From the NCBI RefSeq assembly GCF_900110645.1, contig NZ_FOFB01000020.1, positions 1-64,000 on the forward strand: 64,000 nt of DNA, read 5' to 3'. Under the pieces are notes generated by a model. It made no database searches. It was given only the letters and a program-made list of their open reading frames with translations, and was not told the DNA's origin. Positions 55,009 to 64,000 of the stretch are shown piece after piece; the first letter of the stretch is position 1, and each line of letters opens with the position of its first letter. The position numbers and the translations under genes are program-made. The stretch comes from Neolewinella agarilytica (lineage in GTDB: Bacteria > Bacteroidota > Bacteroidia > Chitinophagales > Saprospiraceae).

Positions 55009-55734
55009 ATGAAGTTCGAAGTCCTCTACCACGATGATCACCTCATCGTGGTCAACAAGCCCGCCAACTTATTGTCTGTACCGGATCGTTATGATCCGGA
55101 CATTCCCAATCTTACCGCTCTTCTGGGGCGTAAATTCGGAGACCCGGTAATGGCTGTGCACCGCCTGGATAAACCCACCAGCGGAGTCATTGTCTATGCT
55201 CGTTCGCCGGAGGCGCACCGGGAGCTCAACCGACAATTTCAGGAGCGGGAAGTAGACAAAGTCTATCACGCCATCGTTGACGGGCAGCCCCCCGAGGAAG
55301 GCGACGTCGAGATTGATGAACCCATTGCCCGGAACCCCGGGCAAACCGGACGGATGATGGTCTCTAACCGTGGAGTATACGCCTTCACTGTTTTTAAGGT
55401 GATGGAGCGCTTCGGGCACCAGTTCAGCCTGCTGGGCGTTCAGATTTTTACGGGGCGGACACATCAGATTCGCGTTCACCTCAATTATGCCGGCTATCCG
55501 CTTATGGTGGATCCTTTCTACGGTAAGCGGGAGGAGTTTAAGCTCTCCGAAATAAAACGACGTTACAATATTGGCAAAGACCAGGACGAGCGCCCCTTAC
55601 TTTCCAGAGTACCCCTCCATGCCAGCAGGCTGGCTTTCAATCACCCTGATACAGGAGAACGTGTGTCGTTTGAGGCAACGATGCCTAAGGATATGCGGGC
55701 AGTGTTGAATCAGTTGCGGAAGTTAGGTAAGTAG
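55009..55734 (+). CDS. RluA-family pseudouridine synthase
   Basis: The 241-aa enzyme has the family's catalytic block H51-R-L-D54-K-P-T-S-G, preceded by VVNKPANLLSVP and followed by GRTHQIRVHLNYAGYPLMVDPFYG. D54 is the nucleophile for isomerising uridine in rRNA or tRNA. It has no S4 domain, which is closer to RluA/TruC than to RluC/RluD. Its 3' end overlaps the convergent gene at 55723 by 12 bp. Confidence 0.9.
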   Translation: MKFEVLYHDDHLIVVNKPANLLSVPDRYDPDIPNLTALLGRKFGDPVMAVHRLDKPTSGVIVYARSPEAHRELNRQFQEREVDKVYHAIVDGQPPEEGDVEIDEPIARNPGQTGRMMVSNRGVYAFTVFKVMERFGHQFSLLGVQIFTGRTHQIRVHLNYAGYPLMVDPFYGKREEFKLSEIKRRYNIGKDQDERPLLSRVPLHASRLAFNHPDTGERVSFEATMPKDMRAVLNQLRKLGK

Positions 55735-57216
55735 TTCAAGTATGATGTCGTACAAATCCTCATAAGGCAGAACCTCTTGATCGTAAGACGGTTGAAGGAC
55801 GCCTACCGGTACCTCATCAAGCATAGCTCTGTAATCCTTGGTTCTGCGTTTAGTAGAGTTGTAATTATAGTCAGATTTAGTGATTTCCGCCATCATCCGA
55901 AAGAAGACGTTGGCCCGAAAGTTCTTCTCTTTATCCAGATACCTGTCCCTGTACTTCATAGTTGCCTCGTATCGATCCATTACGCCGTCGTAGTCTCCGC
56001 GTTGTAGTAGTAAAATGAACTGGCTTATGAGGATGGGCACATTTTGTCCTCGTTTATCCTTTGTGAAGGTCGGCACACTATTAAGGTAACGGTGAATCCT
56101 GAAGTTATTGTTGTCCGTCCAGTCACTAAGCCGTCCAGACTGGTGCAGCAAATACAAATAAGCACTATAAATGATCCAGGTTTCCTGAATGCTGTTGGGG
56201 AGCTTCTTGAATTTCGAGTGATTAATCACCTGTTGATAGACCTTATAGGCATTACTGAATCGTTTGGTGTGGACGGATAGAAGGAAAGAGAACTCAAGAT
56301 GCTTAAACCAGTTGTACTTTCCAACGGTAATGTGCTGTCGTACAATCTCCAATGTTCGTTCTCCCTTTTCAAACTCCTTTAAGGCTACATAGCAGGCGGT
56401 AAGATTGATGCCTATCGCGAAGATTGCTGAAGCATAAGGGAAAGGAAGTTTCATGATTTCCGCTAAGCCCGCTTCACCGTGAGGAACTGCTTCTTGATAC
56501 TCATTGACACTCATGTACTTTGCTAAATGCAGAGCGCAGGTAGTGTACGTAAGTTGCCCACTGTTCAATGAGCAAGGCATGGAGTTGATATCTGCCAGGT
56601 ACTCGTCAATTAAAGCTTCTACCTCAGGCTTTTTTGAGCGATCTACTACGTACATGGAACTGATGTGGTACCAATGAGATCTACTGACGGACTCTTTAGA
56701 TAGCAGCTGTTGCAGTTCCTTCATCTCTTTATTGATGGACAATACTTTATCGGGTTGACCCGCCATTGCGTAGACGCCAGAGGCAACACTCAAACCGAAA
56801 ATGTGCTCGGCGGTAAACTGATACTTCGCGGCTACGGAAGTCACTTTCTTTCCTAGTTTTATATAGTTTTCTCTTGCGCCAAACCTAATGAGCAATTTGG
56901 CGAGCATAACATTGGACTGGCATTCTAACAGGGCAGATTCTCTATTGTCGTATTTACTCTTCTTCAGGTCAACAAAAAATACGGTTTGATAGAGTCTTTC
57001 CCGAAGCTGATGTTTCAGTTTATAGTAAGGATTCATTTCTGTCTGTCCGGGGTATAAAAGGGTGAAAGCTTCCTCATCGGAGGTAATTTTTCCGTCGATA
57101 AGTGCACGGTAAAACATGTCTAGCTTCGAAGTTCCCGTCTTGTTGTAGCTGACGACAGAAATGTTCTTCGTCTTGTTTTTGTTGAGCACTCGGGTGAGCT
57201 CTAGCAATAATTTCAT
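55723..57216 (-). CDS. Large helical-repeat protein, function unknown
   Basis: The 497-aa protein has no signal peptide. A short basic N-terminus (LLLELTRVLNKNKTKN) precedes an all-helical solenoid, with TPR-like pairs of helices from about residue 60 to 430. I do not recognise a family, though Bacteroidota genomes commonly carry such cytosolic solenoids. It is AT-rich relative to the left half of the window and sits close to the peptide cluster at 59134-64000, but no functional link is shown. Confidence 0.6.
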   Translation of the reverse strand: MKLLLELTRVLNKNKTKNISVVSYNKTGTSKLDMFYRALIDGKITSDEEAFTLLYPGQTEMNPYYKLKHQLRERLYQTVFFVDLKKSKYDNRESALLECQSNVMLAKLLIRFGARENYIKLGKKVTSVAAKYQFTAEHIFGLSVASGVYAMAGQPDKVLSINKEMKELQQLLSKESVSRSHWYHISSMYVVDRSKKPEVEALIDEYLADINSMPCSLNSGQLTYTTCALHLAKYMSVNEYQEAVPHGEAGLAEIMKLPFPYASAIFAIGINLTACYVALKEFEKGERTLEIVRQHITVGKYNWFKHLEFSFLLSVHTKRFSNAYKVYQQVINHSKFKKLPNSIQETWIIYSAYLYLLHQSGRLSDWTDNNNFRIHRYLNSVPTFTKDKRGQNVPILISQFILLLQRGDYDGVMDRYEATMKYRDRYLDKEKNFRANVFFRMMAEITKSDYNYNSTKRRTKDYRAMLDEVPVGVLQPSYDQEVLPYEDLYDIILELLT

Positions 57217-58300: not shown

Positions 58301-58834
58301 ATGGTAGCTCAGACTCAACAAGGCCGATACGAACTGACACCCTATGCTCCACATGCCTACGTCTTTACGACGGAGAGAGGGAATACCTATATCGTCCGGT
58401 TTATTCGCTATTGGCAGGAGGAGGTTGTTGAGTTATACATTAAGAAAGAACTGGAGGTGTTTGAAATATACTTCGAAGTAATGGAAATAAAAGATAAAGG
58501 CTACGACCGTAGAATCCAGTTTACCATCATCGGAGCTATCGTCGATTTCCTTGCTGAAAATGATCGGGTTGGCTTCTTCGACATTAAACGAGAAGACGGC
58601 CGAGGCCTTGAATTGCTACGAGTATATCGTATTTGGCTGAAAATGTATGAACGTAACCGAAAAGAAAAATCAATCATGTTAAATCGAATTGTGAGTATTC
58701 CTGATCAATTTGATTCACATATAGCCTGCTTGGTCCATCCTAATAATAAAAGCTTTAAAGGTCAAAATGTTGACCAGTTGATGGACAGTGTATTAAAGGA
58801 GATATTTCCTCGGGCAACGCTTACTCCTTTCTAG
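58301..58834 (+). CDS. Hypothetical protein, perhaps DUF6169-like
   Basis: The 177-aa protein begins with YELTPYAPHAYVFTTERGNTY followed by VRFIRY, which recalls the DUF6169 opening pattern; this is a weak match from memory. The rest is charged and helix/beta mixed, without membrane segments. Such proteins occur in accessory regions of Bacteroidota and have no known function. It directly precedes the peptide cluster. Confidence 0.5.
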   Translation: MVAQTQQGRYELTPYAPHAYVFTTERGNTYIVRFIRYWQEEVVELYIKKELEVFEIYFEVMEIKDKGYDRRIQFTIIGAIVDFLAENDRVGFFDIKREDGRGLELLRVYRIWLKMYERNRKEKSIMLNRIVSIPDQFDSHIACLVHPNNKSFKGQNVDQLMDSVLKEIFPRATLTPF

Positions 58835-59133: not shown

Positions 59134-59340
59134 ATGGCTAATAAGAAAAACCTCTCCCTCGACAAAGATCGCCTCGTACGCCTCCAGGACGCACAACTCG
59201 ACGCCGCCACCGGTGGTGCCGCTGCTGCCCCAGGGTCCAACACCGTTACCATCGGTCTGCGTGCCGCTAATACAGATGATACCCCCAGCGGTAGCTGCTG
59301 TGCTAAGTCTTGTAACCGTCGTGAGGCTGAAATCGCCTAA
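59134..59340 (+). CDS. Class I lanthipeptide-type precursor peptide 1, 68 aa
   Basis: The peptide begins MANKKNLSLDKDRL, with the alternating Leu/Lys leader pattern of Bacteroidota class I lanthipeptides, then QLDAATGG with the cleavage-site-like G27-G28. A middle block carries LRAAN (about 42-46), and the C-terminus has S54-C55-C56-A-K-S-C60-N61 followed by an acidic/basic tail (RREAEIA). Three cysteines are present and few Ser/Thr sit in the core. Modification into thioether rings is inferred from leader type and the neighbouring LanC-like gene. Confidence 0.8.
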   Translation: MANKKNLSLDKDRLVRLQDAQLDAATGGAAAAPGSNTVTIGLRAANTDDTPSGSCCAKSCNRREAEIA

Positions 59341-59396
59341 GGGACCATTTTCTTAATTCAACTACCAGGGGTCCTGTCCCCGTGAAATAGCTTAGT

Positions 59397-59600
59397 ATGA
59401 AAAACAAAGATCTTTCCCTCGATAAGGAGCGTCTCGCTCGCCTGCAGGAAGAGCAACTCGAAGCAACCATTGCCGGTGCTGATGGCCCCGGATCCAACAA
59501 GGTTGACGTTGATATCCTCCGCGCTGCCAACGACGATACGGATGACGGTACGCGGGCTGCCAGCAACAGCGGCAGCTGCTGTGCGAAGTCTTGTAACTAA
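59397..59600 (+). CDS. Class I lanthipeptide-type precursor peptide 2, 67 aa
   Basis: Same layout as peptide 1: MKNKDLSLDKERLARLQEEQ leader, cleavage-site position A26-G27 rather than GG, middle LRAAN (41-45), acidic DDTDDG spacer, and a C-terminal end at S60-C61-C62-A-K-S-C66-N67 with no extension. It lies 56 nt after peptide 1, probably on the same message. Confidence 0.8.
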   Translation: MKNKDLSLDKERLARLQEEQLEATIAGADGPGSNKVDVDILRAANDDTDDGTRAASNSGSCCAKSCN

Positions 59601-59610
59601 GATCCTCCCG

Positions 59611-59712
59611 GCCGCCGTTCTTTAGTGCCTGCACTAAAATCCGGAGAAGAGAAGCCACCTCAATTTTCCTCTTTTTCTCCTGATCCTCAGCCCCATAGAA
59701 CGGCGGCTTTTA
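59611..59712 (+). other. Structured RNA element between precursor genes 2 and 3
   Basis: GCCGCCGTTCT (59611-59621) pairs with AGAACGGCGGC (59697-59707), followed by T-rich sequence. A small hairpin TTTAGTG-CCTG-CACTAAA lies just inside. It could be a terminator with a large loop, or an attenuator or stabiliser that sets relative peptide levels. Confidence 0.5.
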
Positions 59713-59778
59713 TACTAAGTAATTGTCATTCTATATCCATTCACTACGCCACATTACGAAGGCGAAAAAAGAAAAAAC

Positions 59779-59973
59779 ATGAAGTCCAATAAACTCAAAC
59801 TCGATAAAGATACCCTGACCCGGCTGCAAAGCCAGCAAATGTCAGCCGCCGTAGGTGGTGCTACGGGAGAATACGAATCCAATGTCATTAAAGACGAACC
59901 AGAACTACGTGCCGCTGATAACGATGGAGGTGCCGATTCATGCTGTAGTAAGTCCTGTAATCGACGCGATTAA
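59779..59973 (+). CDS. Class I lanthipeptide-type precursor peptide 3, 64 aa
   Basis: The leader is MKSNKLKLDKDTLTRLQSQQ and the cleavage site is G26-G27. The middle block has ELRAAD (about 42-47), and the core ends in S54-C55-C56-S-K-S-C60-N61 plus RRD. It differs from peptides 1 and 2 by an acidic segment after the leader and only Ser (no Thr) near the cysteines. Confidence 0.8.
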   Translation: MKSNKLKLDKDTLTRLQSQQMSAAVGGATGEYESNVIKDEPELRAADNDGGADSCCSKSCNRRD

Positions 59974-60105
59974 TGCCAGGGATCACCTGGTACTCCAATA
60001 TTCAAATTAAAGCGGTTTGGTCTCATGGGGTATAGCCGATAATAATCTTTTTGAGATGCTGACTGGCCCCCACTTGACTTAGCATAGTATATAAATAATA
60101 GAATA

Positions 60106-60300
60106 ATGAAAAAGAAATTACAACTAAAAAAAGAAACACTCGTACGCTTACGCGAACAACAGCTAGCGGCTACCCAGGGAGGAAATGCTCTTGCTGAATC
60201 AAGAGGCGTAAACAGTGCTGATGAATTAGCCGTCGCCTTTGCGAGCTGCTGCCGAAAAACCTGTAATGACCCCAAAGAAGAGGAAATTGGTATTGACTAG
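60106..60300 (+). CDS. Class I lanthipeptide-type precursor peptide 4, 64 aa
   Basis: The most divergent copy: leader MKKKLQLKKETLVRLREQQL, cleavage site G25-G26, no LRAA block (ELAVAF instead), core S47-C48-C49-R-K-T-C53-N54, then an acidic tail DPKEEEIGID. It keeps the invariant S-C-C-x-K-[S/T]-C-N frame, with Thr replacing Ser before the third cysteine. It is preceded by 132 nt of spacer after peptide 3. Confidence 0.78.
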   Translation: MKKKLQLKKETLVRLREQQLAATQGGNALAESRGVNSADELAVAFASCCRKTCNDPKEEEIGID

Positions 60301-60544
60301 TCTTGGGTGCGCAATGAATTAAGTGCAAGCAAAAAACTATCAAAAAACAATCAGATAAATTTAGTAGTGTTGGAATAAGGCAGGAGCCTGATTAGGTTTC
60401 GGCGAGATATACTGTAAGACCCTTCGCCATAAATATCGTAGGATAATATAAGTAAGACATCTCATAGGTGTGGGCCCTCCTTATTCCTTTTTTACTCTTT
60501 TCATTCTGTGTACTCTCCTACCTTTTACAATAAAAAATCGAATA

Positions 60545-62980
60545 ATGTTTATTCATATCCGCCTCATACTTACAGTAATACTTACGGGCTTACTGTTTCC
60601 GCTTTTTCTGTTTTGTCAGGATGATTCTTCGATAAAAGTCTCGGGAGTTATTCTAACAGAAGATCAACAGCCCGTAGATTTTGCCTCTGTCTCTATTCTG
60701 GCTTCTGAAGATACTGCTGTTGTAGACTTTCAGTTAAGTGATGAATCCGGAAATTATGAGTTTCAAAACCTGAAGGCCGGTGGCTACCTGTTGAGGATTA
60801 GCCGACTGGGCTTTCCCGATTATACCACTGAGGCTTTTCAGCTCGTTGATGGTCAGCATCTGGAAATGTCCCCTGTGATGCAATCCACGGGAAATGACCT
60901 GGCCGTAGTGGAAGTGACTAGCCGACGGCCCATGGTTGCTTTCTCCGGAGGGAAAATGGTGGTTGCGGCGGACCAACTGCCTGGTAAAGAAATAAGCTCC
61001 GGCCTTGAGATCCTGAATAAGGTCCCCGGGGTATTTGTGAATGGGACGTCCATAACACTCAATGGATTTGGCAACGTCAATGTACTTATTAATGGCCGGC
61101 GACGAACCATGACTGCCAGCCAGGCCGCCACCCTTCTGCAGGGTATACCCGCAGAGAACATCAAAACTATTGAAGTCCGCAGCGGTAAGTCTGTATCTCA
61201 GGATGCATCAGGTACGGGCGGAGAGATCAACATCATCACGCACAAGTCTCTGGGGCAATTCTTTAATTTCAGTTTGCGTAACCGCGTAACGATTGATCGC
61301 TTCGTGAGCAACAGCCATAATGCCTACCTAAATTATAACGGTAGCCGCATTCGCTTCAACGGCGGCATTAACTATACCCGGAACTACAGCTACGGCAACC
61401 AACAACGGAATGAACGTTACTTCGACAATGATGAAAACCTGTTTGGTACGAACCAGGTAAACATAAACTCCCAAAGCCTTAGCCAATTACCTTCTGGTAA
61501 CTTCGGTATAGAGTATGACCTCAGCAGCAAACAACGTATTGGCATAAATGGTAACTCTTACTTTACGGTAAAGGATGGCCGGACGACCAATCTCAGTACT
61601 TTCGACTTCGTCGATGCCGAAGACCGGGACGTTCTGCTGGGAGAACAACTAGACCTCAATGACAACCTGAGCTCATTTGATGCTTACTACGAAAACGATC
61701 TGGACAGCCTCGGCAGCCGCCTCACGGCCAACCTCGGCTACCTGACCGGATACAGCCGGGAACAGATAGACTTTGACCGAAGAGAACCTCCCACGCTCTC
61801 TGGAAGCGAAGCATTGAACCTGCGTACGCGCCTCCCCCTTGATGGTGCTCAGACTACATTTCGCACAGATCTGAAAAAGTACCTGAGTCCTTCTACCGTT
61901 ATCTCTGCAGGCATTAAAATCTCCGACGGAAGCATTGAGAATTTCTCTGTGTTTGATACCATTAGCCGGCAGCCGCCCGTCCGCAATCTCGAACTCAGCG
62001 ACAGCCTTGGCTACCAGGAGCAGGTGTATGCCGCTTACGCCTCCATTAGCCACGAAATGGGATACCTGAGCTTTGAAGCCGGTTTGAGAGCAGAAGCTAC
62101 CAGGACGGAAACCTACAGCTATAAGGTTGATGCGCGTGGAGGACAGTCTTACGAAAACCTTTTCCCGAACCTGGCCGTGAGCTACGCTCCTTCCGCTAAT
62201 CACCAGTTCACCCTCAACTACAGTTCTTCGATTACACGCCCGAACTACCTGGAGCTGAACCCCTACGTTCGTTACCTGGACGCTTTCACCTTCACGACGG
62301 GAAATAACGAATTGCTACCCGAAATTGACCACCGGCTAACGCTCAATACGCGTCTCTACCGACTGCTCTACCTGAACTTCGGTCTGATTCGTGGCCAGCG
62401 TTACGTCGGCCAGGTCCGGGAACTAACGGAGGACGGGCTGACGACGAGTATCACCCCACAGAACGCCTTCAACGTCCGGGCGGGCTACGTTCAAGCCATC
62501 ATTTACTACCAGTTCGGTAAAAATGAGAAAGTACAGGGCCAGTTGTCCTCACTGGTGGTGCCTCTCAATTATCTCCCACTCCCTGCTTTTGAAGATCAGG
62601 CACAGTTCACGGGGTCAACCACTAAAGTCGTTCTTTCTGCCTCGACGCAGGTTAAGCTCACGGATCGTCTTACTATTGAGGGCGATTACCGATTTACCCG
62701 CGGTAGGCTTTACTTCCAGCGGAGAAACCTGAATCAATGGGTGGCCAATGCTCAGCTGAGATACCGCTTACCTGGCGATGCCTTCACGCTGGCAGTAGGG
62801 GCTACTGACCTGTTCAACAGTAATAATGCAGCAGGAGAGCGGTTTTTCACGGGCTTTGAGTCTGATTATGCTTCAGACTTTAATACCCGTCGCGTATCGA
62901 TTGCCCTCAATTACCGCCTGGGTAAGCTGCGTAAAAACTACCGGCGAGGCCCGGAGGGCGACGTTGGTCGCTTCCAATAA
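60545..62980 (+). CDS. Outer-membrane TonB-dependent-receptor-like beta-barrel protein
   Basis: From the ATG at 60545 (MFIHIRLILT) the protein is 811 aa with a signal sequence. A carboxypeptidase-regulatory-like domain (about 28-115) and a plug domain (about 118-225: ILNKVPGVFVNG, NVNVLINGRR) precede a large barrel that ends with the aromatic-rich strands typical of the outer-membrane barrel family often placed with TonB receptors in Bacteroidota. Next to the peptide genes it may move the peptide across the outer membrane or take up a product or signal. Start at 60470 would put the signal sequence inside. Confidence 0.85.
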   Translation: MFIHIRLILTVILTGLLFPLFLFCQDDSSIKVSGVILTEDQQPVDFASVSILASEDTAVVDFQLSDESGNYEFQNLKAGGYLLRISRLGFPDYTTEAFQLVDGQHLEMSPVMQSTGNDLAVVEVTSRRPMVAFSGGKMVVAADQLPGKEISSGLEILNKVPGVFVNGTSITLNGFGNVNVLINGRRRTMTASQAATLLQGIPAENIKTIEVRSGKSVSQDASGTGGEINIITHKSLGQFFNFSLRNRVTIDRFVSNSHNAYLNYNGSRIRFNGGINYTRNYSYGNQQRNERYFDNDENLFGTNQVNINSQSLSQLPSGNFGIEYDLSSKQRIGINGNSYFTVKDGRTTNLSTFDFVDAEDRDVLLGEQLDLNDNLSSFDAYYENDLDSLGSRLTANLGYLTGYSREQIDFDRREPPTLSGSEALNLRTRLPLDGAQTTFRTDLKKYLSPSTVISAGIKISDGSIENFSVFDTISRQPPVRNLELSDSLGYQEQVYAAYASISHEMGYLSFEAGLRAEATRTETYSYKVDARGGQSYENLFPNLAVSYAPSANHQFTLNYSSSITRPNYLELNPYVRYLDAFTFTTGNNELLPEIDHRLTLNTRLYRLLYLNFGLIRGQRYVGQVRELTEDGLTTSITPQNAFNVRAGYVQAIIYYQFGKNEKVQGQLSSLVVPLNYLPLPAFEDQAQFTGSTTKVVLSASTQVKLTDRLTIEGDYRFTRGRLYFQRRNLNQWVANAQLRYRLPGDAFTLAVGATDLFNSNNAAGERFFTGFESDYASDFNTRRVSIALNYRLGKLRKNYRRGPEGDVGRFQ

Positions 62981-63186
62981 AGAAGGCTTTGGGTGCCCTT
63001 GTTTCAATAAGGCGTTCAGTAGCCTGAAAGTACTGTCTCAATACAATTTCTGTTACATCTCCTTTTGAGGAGTACCCACTTTCCATTTTTGACGAGTGGG
63101 TGGGGGGAAAGGTTTACAACGTATGCCCTGGCAGCGCTAAGCCTTCTCCTTGCCCATACTCTTCATCATCATAAAATTTTCTGGCT

Positions 63187-64000
63187 ATGTCTACGACGGT
63201 AACCGCGTTGGCAAATCAAGGGAGTCTGCCTCACCAGGACTCCGCGCTTACCCGGCGGCTATTCGAATTAGCCGAAAATATCGATCGATACGATACCGGC
63301 TTTGGCCTCAATGGAATAACGATGTTGGCGGTCTGCCGCTACCTCAATTCAGGAGCGTCAGCAGATTTGGCGATTGCGCAAAACCTTTGCCTTCAGGCTA
63401 TTGAAGGGGTGACCGACCCGCAACATACCGCAGCCGCTACCCTGGTTGAAATCAGTGAACTGGCTCAGTTTCTGGCTTCCCATGCTGAAACGCTGGAGCT
63501 GTCCGAAGCCGTTACTCCCTTACGCGAAATGCTGCACCAGATTTTGGTTAAGCGGATGAATATTTGCTTTGAAAAGCAGGAGCTGGATCCTTACACAGGA
63601 GGCTTTCAGCCCGCCTGGTATCTCCTGCTTTATGGCCCGGATTGTCACCAACACCTAAAGAGCTGGCTGGAAGCTTTACCCACCGTTGAAGCCCTCGCAG
63701 AGCGCCATGAAGATGGTACTTATAAAGTGGCCACCGGCCTGTCTCACGGCCTGGCTTTCTATGCGCTCTTTGTATGCAAAGTCTTGCAGCGCTGCCCTGA
63801 AGTCAGAGCATTTCAGCGGCGCGGGAAGGGCTATCTCAGAGCCTTACGGCGAAGATCGGTTTCCGCCCGCCGCTACGGTTGCTACTACCTGGAAGGTAAG
63901 GCGCGCGGACCGGGCCGCTTATGCCTGGCCTACGGAGATATGGGCATCCTTTATGCAGGTCTGCAGCTGGCGCGCTTGCTGGGCGAAACGGATGAAGTTG
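63187..64000 (+). CDS. LanC-like lanthionine synthetase (3' end outside window)
   Basis: An open frame from the ATG at 63187 (MSTTVTALANQG) runs to the window edge (271 codons). LanC features are DTGFGLNGITML (about 37-48), DPYTGGFQPAW with the likely catalytic Asp, GLSHGLAFYALF with the catalytic His, and RLCLAYGDMGIL. In the last, the usual R-L-x-W-C-Y-G reads R-L-C-L-A-Y-G: the first zinc-ligand Cys position is Ala (63928-63930), with a Cys two residues earlier (63922-63924). The second Cys-His ligand pair lies beyond the edge. It should cyclise Cys onto dehydrated Ser/Thr in the four peptides upstream. No dehydratase is visible in the window. Confidence 0.8.
   Translation, partial: MSTTVTALANQGSLPHQDSALTRRLFELAENIDRYDTGFGLNGITMLAVCRYLNSGASADLAIAQNLCLQAIEGVTDPQHTAAATLVEISELAQFLASHAETLELSEAVTPLREMLHQILVKRMNICFEKQELDPYTGGFQPAWYLLLYGPDCHQHLKSWLEALPTVEALAERHEDGTYKVATGLSHGLAFYALFVCKVLQRCPEVRAFQRRGKGYLRALRRRSVSARRYGCYYLEGKARGPGRLCLAYGDMGILYAGLQLARLLGETDEV

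Follow-up and report, generated by a model that had tools for sequence, protein, structure and literature searches.

What product would be made by four short genes in a row, followed by an outer-membrane barrel and a LanC-like gene, in Neolewinella agarilytica, and does the LanC-like protein have the active site of a LanC? The window, meaning the whole stretch of 64,000 bases that was analysed, covers bases 1-64000 of contig NZ_FOFB01000020.1 (C43; 126,463 bases), and its end cuts the first of two LanC-like genes; genes beyond it are given in the same numbering. The class I lanthipeptide cluster proposed by the first-pass annotation is supported in that the genes directly downstream encode LanB, a zinc-type LanC and a C39 exporter. 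The locus is probably a gene cluster that makes and exports class I lanthipeptides of the Bacteroidetes LxLxK/GG type, read here from its genes (probability about 0.88). Its interest lies in a LanC without zinc ligands within a LanB cluster and in the tie of this protein to a short core, rather than in the leader or the multi-peptide layout. The features, the precursors being taken from the open reading frame (ORF) list and NF038153, are as follows.

59134..59340, +: precursor A1, 68 aa, GG site, core with SCCAKSCN
59397..59600, +: precursor A2, 67 aa, AG site, core ending SCCAKSCN
59779..59973, +: precursor A3, 64 aa, GG site, core with SCCSKSCN
60106..60300, +: precursor A4, 64 aa, GG site, core with SCCRKTCN and an acidic tail
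60545..62980, +: outer-membrane barrel with CarboxypepD-like and plug domains (TonB-receptor-like; OMP_b-brl_3), from Pfam; counterparts in five other clusters
63187..64344 (in the window to 64000), +: LanC1, 385 aa, predicted LanC fold without zinc ligands
64347-65570, beyond the window: LanC2, LANC_like PF05147, 107.1 bits
65581-66540, beyond the window: luciferase-like enzyme, PF00296, 71.7 bits
66561-69755, beyond the window: LanB, PF04738 359.6 bits, PF14028 159.2 bits
69770-71971, beyond the window: C39-peptidase ABC exporter (C39-ABC)
71974-72378, beyond the window: 134-aa membrane protein, no family match; counterpart at the equivalent place in Lewinella sp. W8
After the 134-aa protein gene, opposite strand: ffh, SRP54 match

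The cluster and its LanC-like proteins

The residues of LanC1 at the positions of NisC Cys284, Cys330 and His331 are A, L and Y in all three orthologues, not the ligands of a zinc LanC, while those aligned with Asp141, His212 and Tyr285 are retained. The predicted model has the LanC alpha-toroid fold, with LanC structures as its best matches. The LanC-like cyclase of the first-pass annotation is therefore a LanC by its model fold, lacking zinc ligands whose absence had gone unseen. With LANC_like it scores 22.8 bits, just under the cut-off of 23.2, so that mining from that Pfam model may miss such genes. LanC2 retains the ligands (WCYG and CHG aligned with NisC).

The four consecutive short genes with a Leu/Lys leader and S-C-C-x-K-[S/T]-C-N were confirmed from the ORFs, the motif count and shuffles. 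The ORF of A1 is open upstream to 59020, and its leader starts at 59134. A search with the NCBIfam leader model NF038153 (lant_leader_L1a; curated cut-off 22 bits), a check proposed at the outset, placed all four above the cut-off (24.5, 30.2, 33.1 and 31.3 bits for A1 to A4) and gave no other match in this genome; the leaders fit, and the model says nothing on the core. When the window is translated in all six frames, SCCx[KR][ST]C is found four times, always in A1-A4; 30 mononucleotide shuffles give 0.03 on average. A class I leader with Ser/Thr and Cys in the core is present in all four. The cleavage site had been called GG-like, which holds for A1, A3 and A4, A2 having AG, and the cores very poor in Ser/Thr, which does not hold for all, core 1 having 8 in 40 residues.

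Both the LanB and the C39 protease/exporter that were to be sought on the right flank are present, downstream on the contig. LanB has both dehydratase domains and keeps its motifs when aligned with NisB, and its N-terminal model has one match in this genome. From LanC1 onward the intergenic gaps are 2, 10, 20, 14 and 2 bases. Since LanB and C39 are present and LanC structures match LanC1 best, the original class I proposal stands.

Class I precursors of Bacteroidetes have an LxLxKx5L leader, often with GG and C39 (Walker et al. 2020, PMC7268733; for all papers cited, the accessible parts of the text are meant). The leader pattern, GG-type site, LanB, LanC and C39 peptidase are common to both, whereas this core, a zinc-less class I LanC, paired LanCs and an outer-membrane barrel are not described in those parts, where 'TonB' occurs 0 times. 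The luciferase-like reductases named LanJC from a class II pair (birimositide, PMC7268733) share with the enzyme here the PF00296 family and a place within a lanthipeptide cluster, but the cluster here is class I, and the best NCBIfam match of its enzyme is the MsnO8 group, with 139.4 bits against a cut-off of 166.95.

LanB matches at E 1e-30 or better were found in 4 of 100 genomes, namely this one, two others from its genus (G018 with 53% and G015 with 52% identity) and G080 (24%). In the related-loci search, which also gave the LanB of Chryseobacterium sp. MYb7 (28%), G018 and G015 were identified as the metagenome-assembled genome (MAG) Co_bin.246 and Lewinella sp. W8. The gene order in each of the two is the one seen here, with precursors first and then barrel, LanC1, LanC2, luciferase-like enzyme, LanB and C39-ABC. 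There are eight precursors in W8, and two whole and one cut by the contig end in the MAG, with SCCx[KR][ST]C in each; the list kept peptides that have the leader or the Cys motif, and would miss a precursor with neither. Across the 14 whole precursors, leader L7, L9, R16, L17 and Q21 and motif S, C, C and C are invariant, and K11, L14, G28 and K58 nearly so. The LanC1 profile matches 3 of the 21 genomes of the genus; in the phylum sample, beyond its own genome, its matches are all weak (6 of 395 genomes; best E 1.6e-18, against 1e-203).

The core motif in other Bacteroidota

Matches to the precursor profile were found in 4 of 298 family genomes and 8 of 395 phylum genomes, while NF038153 matched 9 of 385 and LANC_like 18 of 385. 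A first scan of genome contigs with one LanB sequence had given 21 stretches that matched the pattern, of which 0 were confirmed. Across all loci, 47-48 peptide ORFs pass a filter on leader, GG or AG, and Cys, and the looser motif [ST]Cx3[ST]C is present in 23 of 48 precursor cores against 0.58 expected when each core is shuffled. One of the filtered peptides without it is a copy cut by the locus end, and the eighth precursor of W8, lacking GG, fails the filter.

The 23 motif peptides lie in six clusters, those of this genome, the MAG, W8, G602 (same family), G180 and G384 (same class). An example of the core in G602 is GSCGKKSCNCPN, and in G180 and G384 ASCVLLSCN and ASCAASCNQNSCN. Each of the six encodes two LanC-like proteins together with a luciferase-like enzyme, LanB, C39-ABC and an OMP_b-brl_3 barrel; the barrel of G384 is at the end of a separate contig beside further precursors. 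The luciferase-like enzymes of G180 and G384 are 80% identical. The core motif, called new by the first-pass annotation, is so in part: exact SCCx[KR][ST]C was found in only three genomes of one genus among those searched, and three more clusters from Bacteroidota have the looser form. The motif is missing from a Chryseobacterium cluster (L019) with LanB, a single ligand-bearing LanC and a luciferase-like gene. For G407, G122, G360 and G262, gene content was read over 3-4 kb around LanC.

Among the matches listed for the open literature (titles and abstracts, most subscription papers lying outside this scope), nothing dealt with two LanCs, one of them zinc-less, next to a LanB, or with the barrel; lanthipeptide with Lewinella gave unrelated work only, and this type of cluster is not described there.

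In a separate locus, L117 (G301:C1:2248000-2266000), 19 L1a-leader matches, many identical, lie at contig 2257066-2260358 on the minus strand, adjoining LanB and C39-ABC. Their cores mostly have one Cys or none, and the genome, presumably part of the sample of 385, is outside the 18 with a LANC_like match. This raises the question of whether there may be dehydration without a cyclase.

Possible roles for LanC1

Several observations weigh against, or limit, the reading of this locus as a lanthipeptide cluster and of its motif as the mark of a wider type. Inspection by eye of the ORFs of the window and flank showed no gene for immunity (LanFEG, LanI) or regulation, no dedicated models having been run. 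In SCCxK[ST]C there are three Cys to two conserved hydroxy residues, so that at least one Cys there would be unexplained by simple lanthionines. As a DNA string the looser motif is not rare (7 in six frames of the window, 3.4 in shuffles). Three species are of one genus and G180 and G384 are a close pair, so that the six clusters amount to about three independent cases. The LanB motif TPFG reads VPFG in G602, G180 and G384, and the odd LanC of G602 has kept Cys284, only the CH pair being missing. The motif is absent from G191, which has a barrel, LanB, C39-like ABC and one LanC with TYG; a luciferase-like gene was not seen there. Confidence in the LanC1 model is low (pLDDT 61.5, 3 rows).

It is quite conceivable, at somewhat less than even odds, that LanC1 is a catalytically dead partner of LanC2, joined to it in a heteromer and serving to bind the leader or the core. 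The two genes are adjacent, 2 bases apart, LanC1 has diverged more across the relatives (42/37% identity, against 50/44% for LanC2), and four of the six motif-bearing clusters combine one LanC that has the ligands with another that is poor in them. A dead partner would, however, leave G180 and G384 unexplained, both copies there being ligand-free, and the Lewinella LanC1 retains Asp, His and Tyr.

These same residues, kept in all three LanC1 where the zinc ligands are gone, suit an active metal-independent cyclase, a possible but more doubtful role in which a ring, for example one at the vicinal Cys pair of SCC, would not need the thiol activation for which the LanC zinc is held to serve (PMC9934072). 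In G180 and G384 the ligands are missing from both LANC_like matches per genome (E 1e-8 or better), so that any rings formed in those LanB clusters would seem to be closed zinc-free; however, Tyr285 is replaced by Asn in one copy and Asp141 by Ser in the other, His212 alone being kept in all. Class III cyclases without zinc provide a precedent, ThurKC functioning without it and having lost, like LanC1, all three ligands within a LanC fold (PMC10604976). ThurKC has also replaced Asp141 and His212, both kept in LanC1, so that the likeness is partial; LanC1 is moreover a separate gene by LanB with no kinase or lyase fused to it, and does not have the features of a class III metal-independent cyclase. 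The loss of metal ligands is also a route from enzyme to scaffold. LanC-like proteins of Bacteroidales, in genomes without LanB, are likewise Bacteroidota proteins missing the C...CH motif and were considered endoglucanase-like (PMC10352776), whereas LanC1 has LanB for a neighbour and is matched best by LanC structures.

The outer-membrane barrel and the proposed pathway

That the precursors precede a TonB-receptor-like barrel and a LanC-like gene is borne out, the barrel being of the OMP_b-brl_3 type with a plug (Plug 33.3, TonB_dep_Rec 35.7, OMP_b-brl_3 204.7 bits). Its start was set at ATG 60545, the ORF being open to GTG at 60470. A multi-peptide, barrel-linked system had been thought unusual, but among the relatives it is not: several precursors and such a barrel are present in all six motif-bearing clusters. 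In G384 (contigs C54 and C55; L060, L115, L116) there are two near-identical precursor pairs, one by LanC/LanB/C39 and the other by the barrel at the contig end, from either a copy or an assembly break.

A plug and barrel in this cluster and a like barrel in every motif-bearing one, together with the unrecognised immunity gene and the surplus of Cys over conserved Ser/Thr, would fit peptides that are exported and then re-imported through the barrel as metal-binding or signalling peptides with free Cys, not toxins. This is rather unlikely: TonB-like barrels are common in Bacteroidota, and the one here might just as well serve as a pore for export or for self-protection. That the genes are chance ORFs or remnants with no working pathway is improbable in the extreme, being contradicted by the intact ORFs, by four motif occurrences where 0.03 are expected and by conservation of the gene set in three species (LanB identity 51-53%).

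Other genes lie close by. Just upstream of the precursors is a 177-aa protein with a sub-threshold DUF6169 match (window 58301-58834, +). A 497-aa protein without a Pfam match above cut-off (window 55723-57216, -) matches, at 33% identity over its full length, a protein encoded close to a further L1a-leader cluster (L118:4766-6304, G583); it belongs either to a family widespread in the order or to the usual surroundings of such clusters. In G602, here and in W8 the gene next after C39-ABC encodes a short protein with a single hydrophobic stretch (L114:4173-4730 and L007:13974-14378); judged by eye, these are perhaps reduced HlyD-type partners. A PADLOC search with four proteins gave no match at 0.01.

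In the proposed pathway LanB would dehydrate Ser/Thr of the four cores, most likely both hydroxy residues of SCCxK[ST]C, and the zinc-bearing LanC2 would close thioether rings. LanC1 would aid LanC2 as a partner or substrate-binding subunit, or would itself form one of the rings metal-free. A dehydro-residue or another group may be altered by the luciferase-like flavin enzyme, C39-ABC would cleave after GG or AG and then export the peptide, and the barrel might serve either for passage of the product across the outer membrane or for its re-uptake.

Tentatively, and at odds well below even, these clusters might represent a class I subtype of the Bacteroidota in which rings on [ST]Cx3[ST]C cores are closed wholly or partly by a LanC that has no zinc site and retains the enolate-protonating His (in Lewinella also Asp and Tyr). 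The SCCx[KR][ST]C peptides of Lewinella would then be one branch, with families of 3 to 8 variants and a dedicated outer-membrane barrel. LanB clusters in which the sole or partner LanC is zinc-less would make it possible to test cleanly what is indispensable in the LanC active site, and the common short core points to where the rings should be sought.
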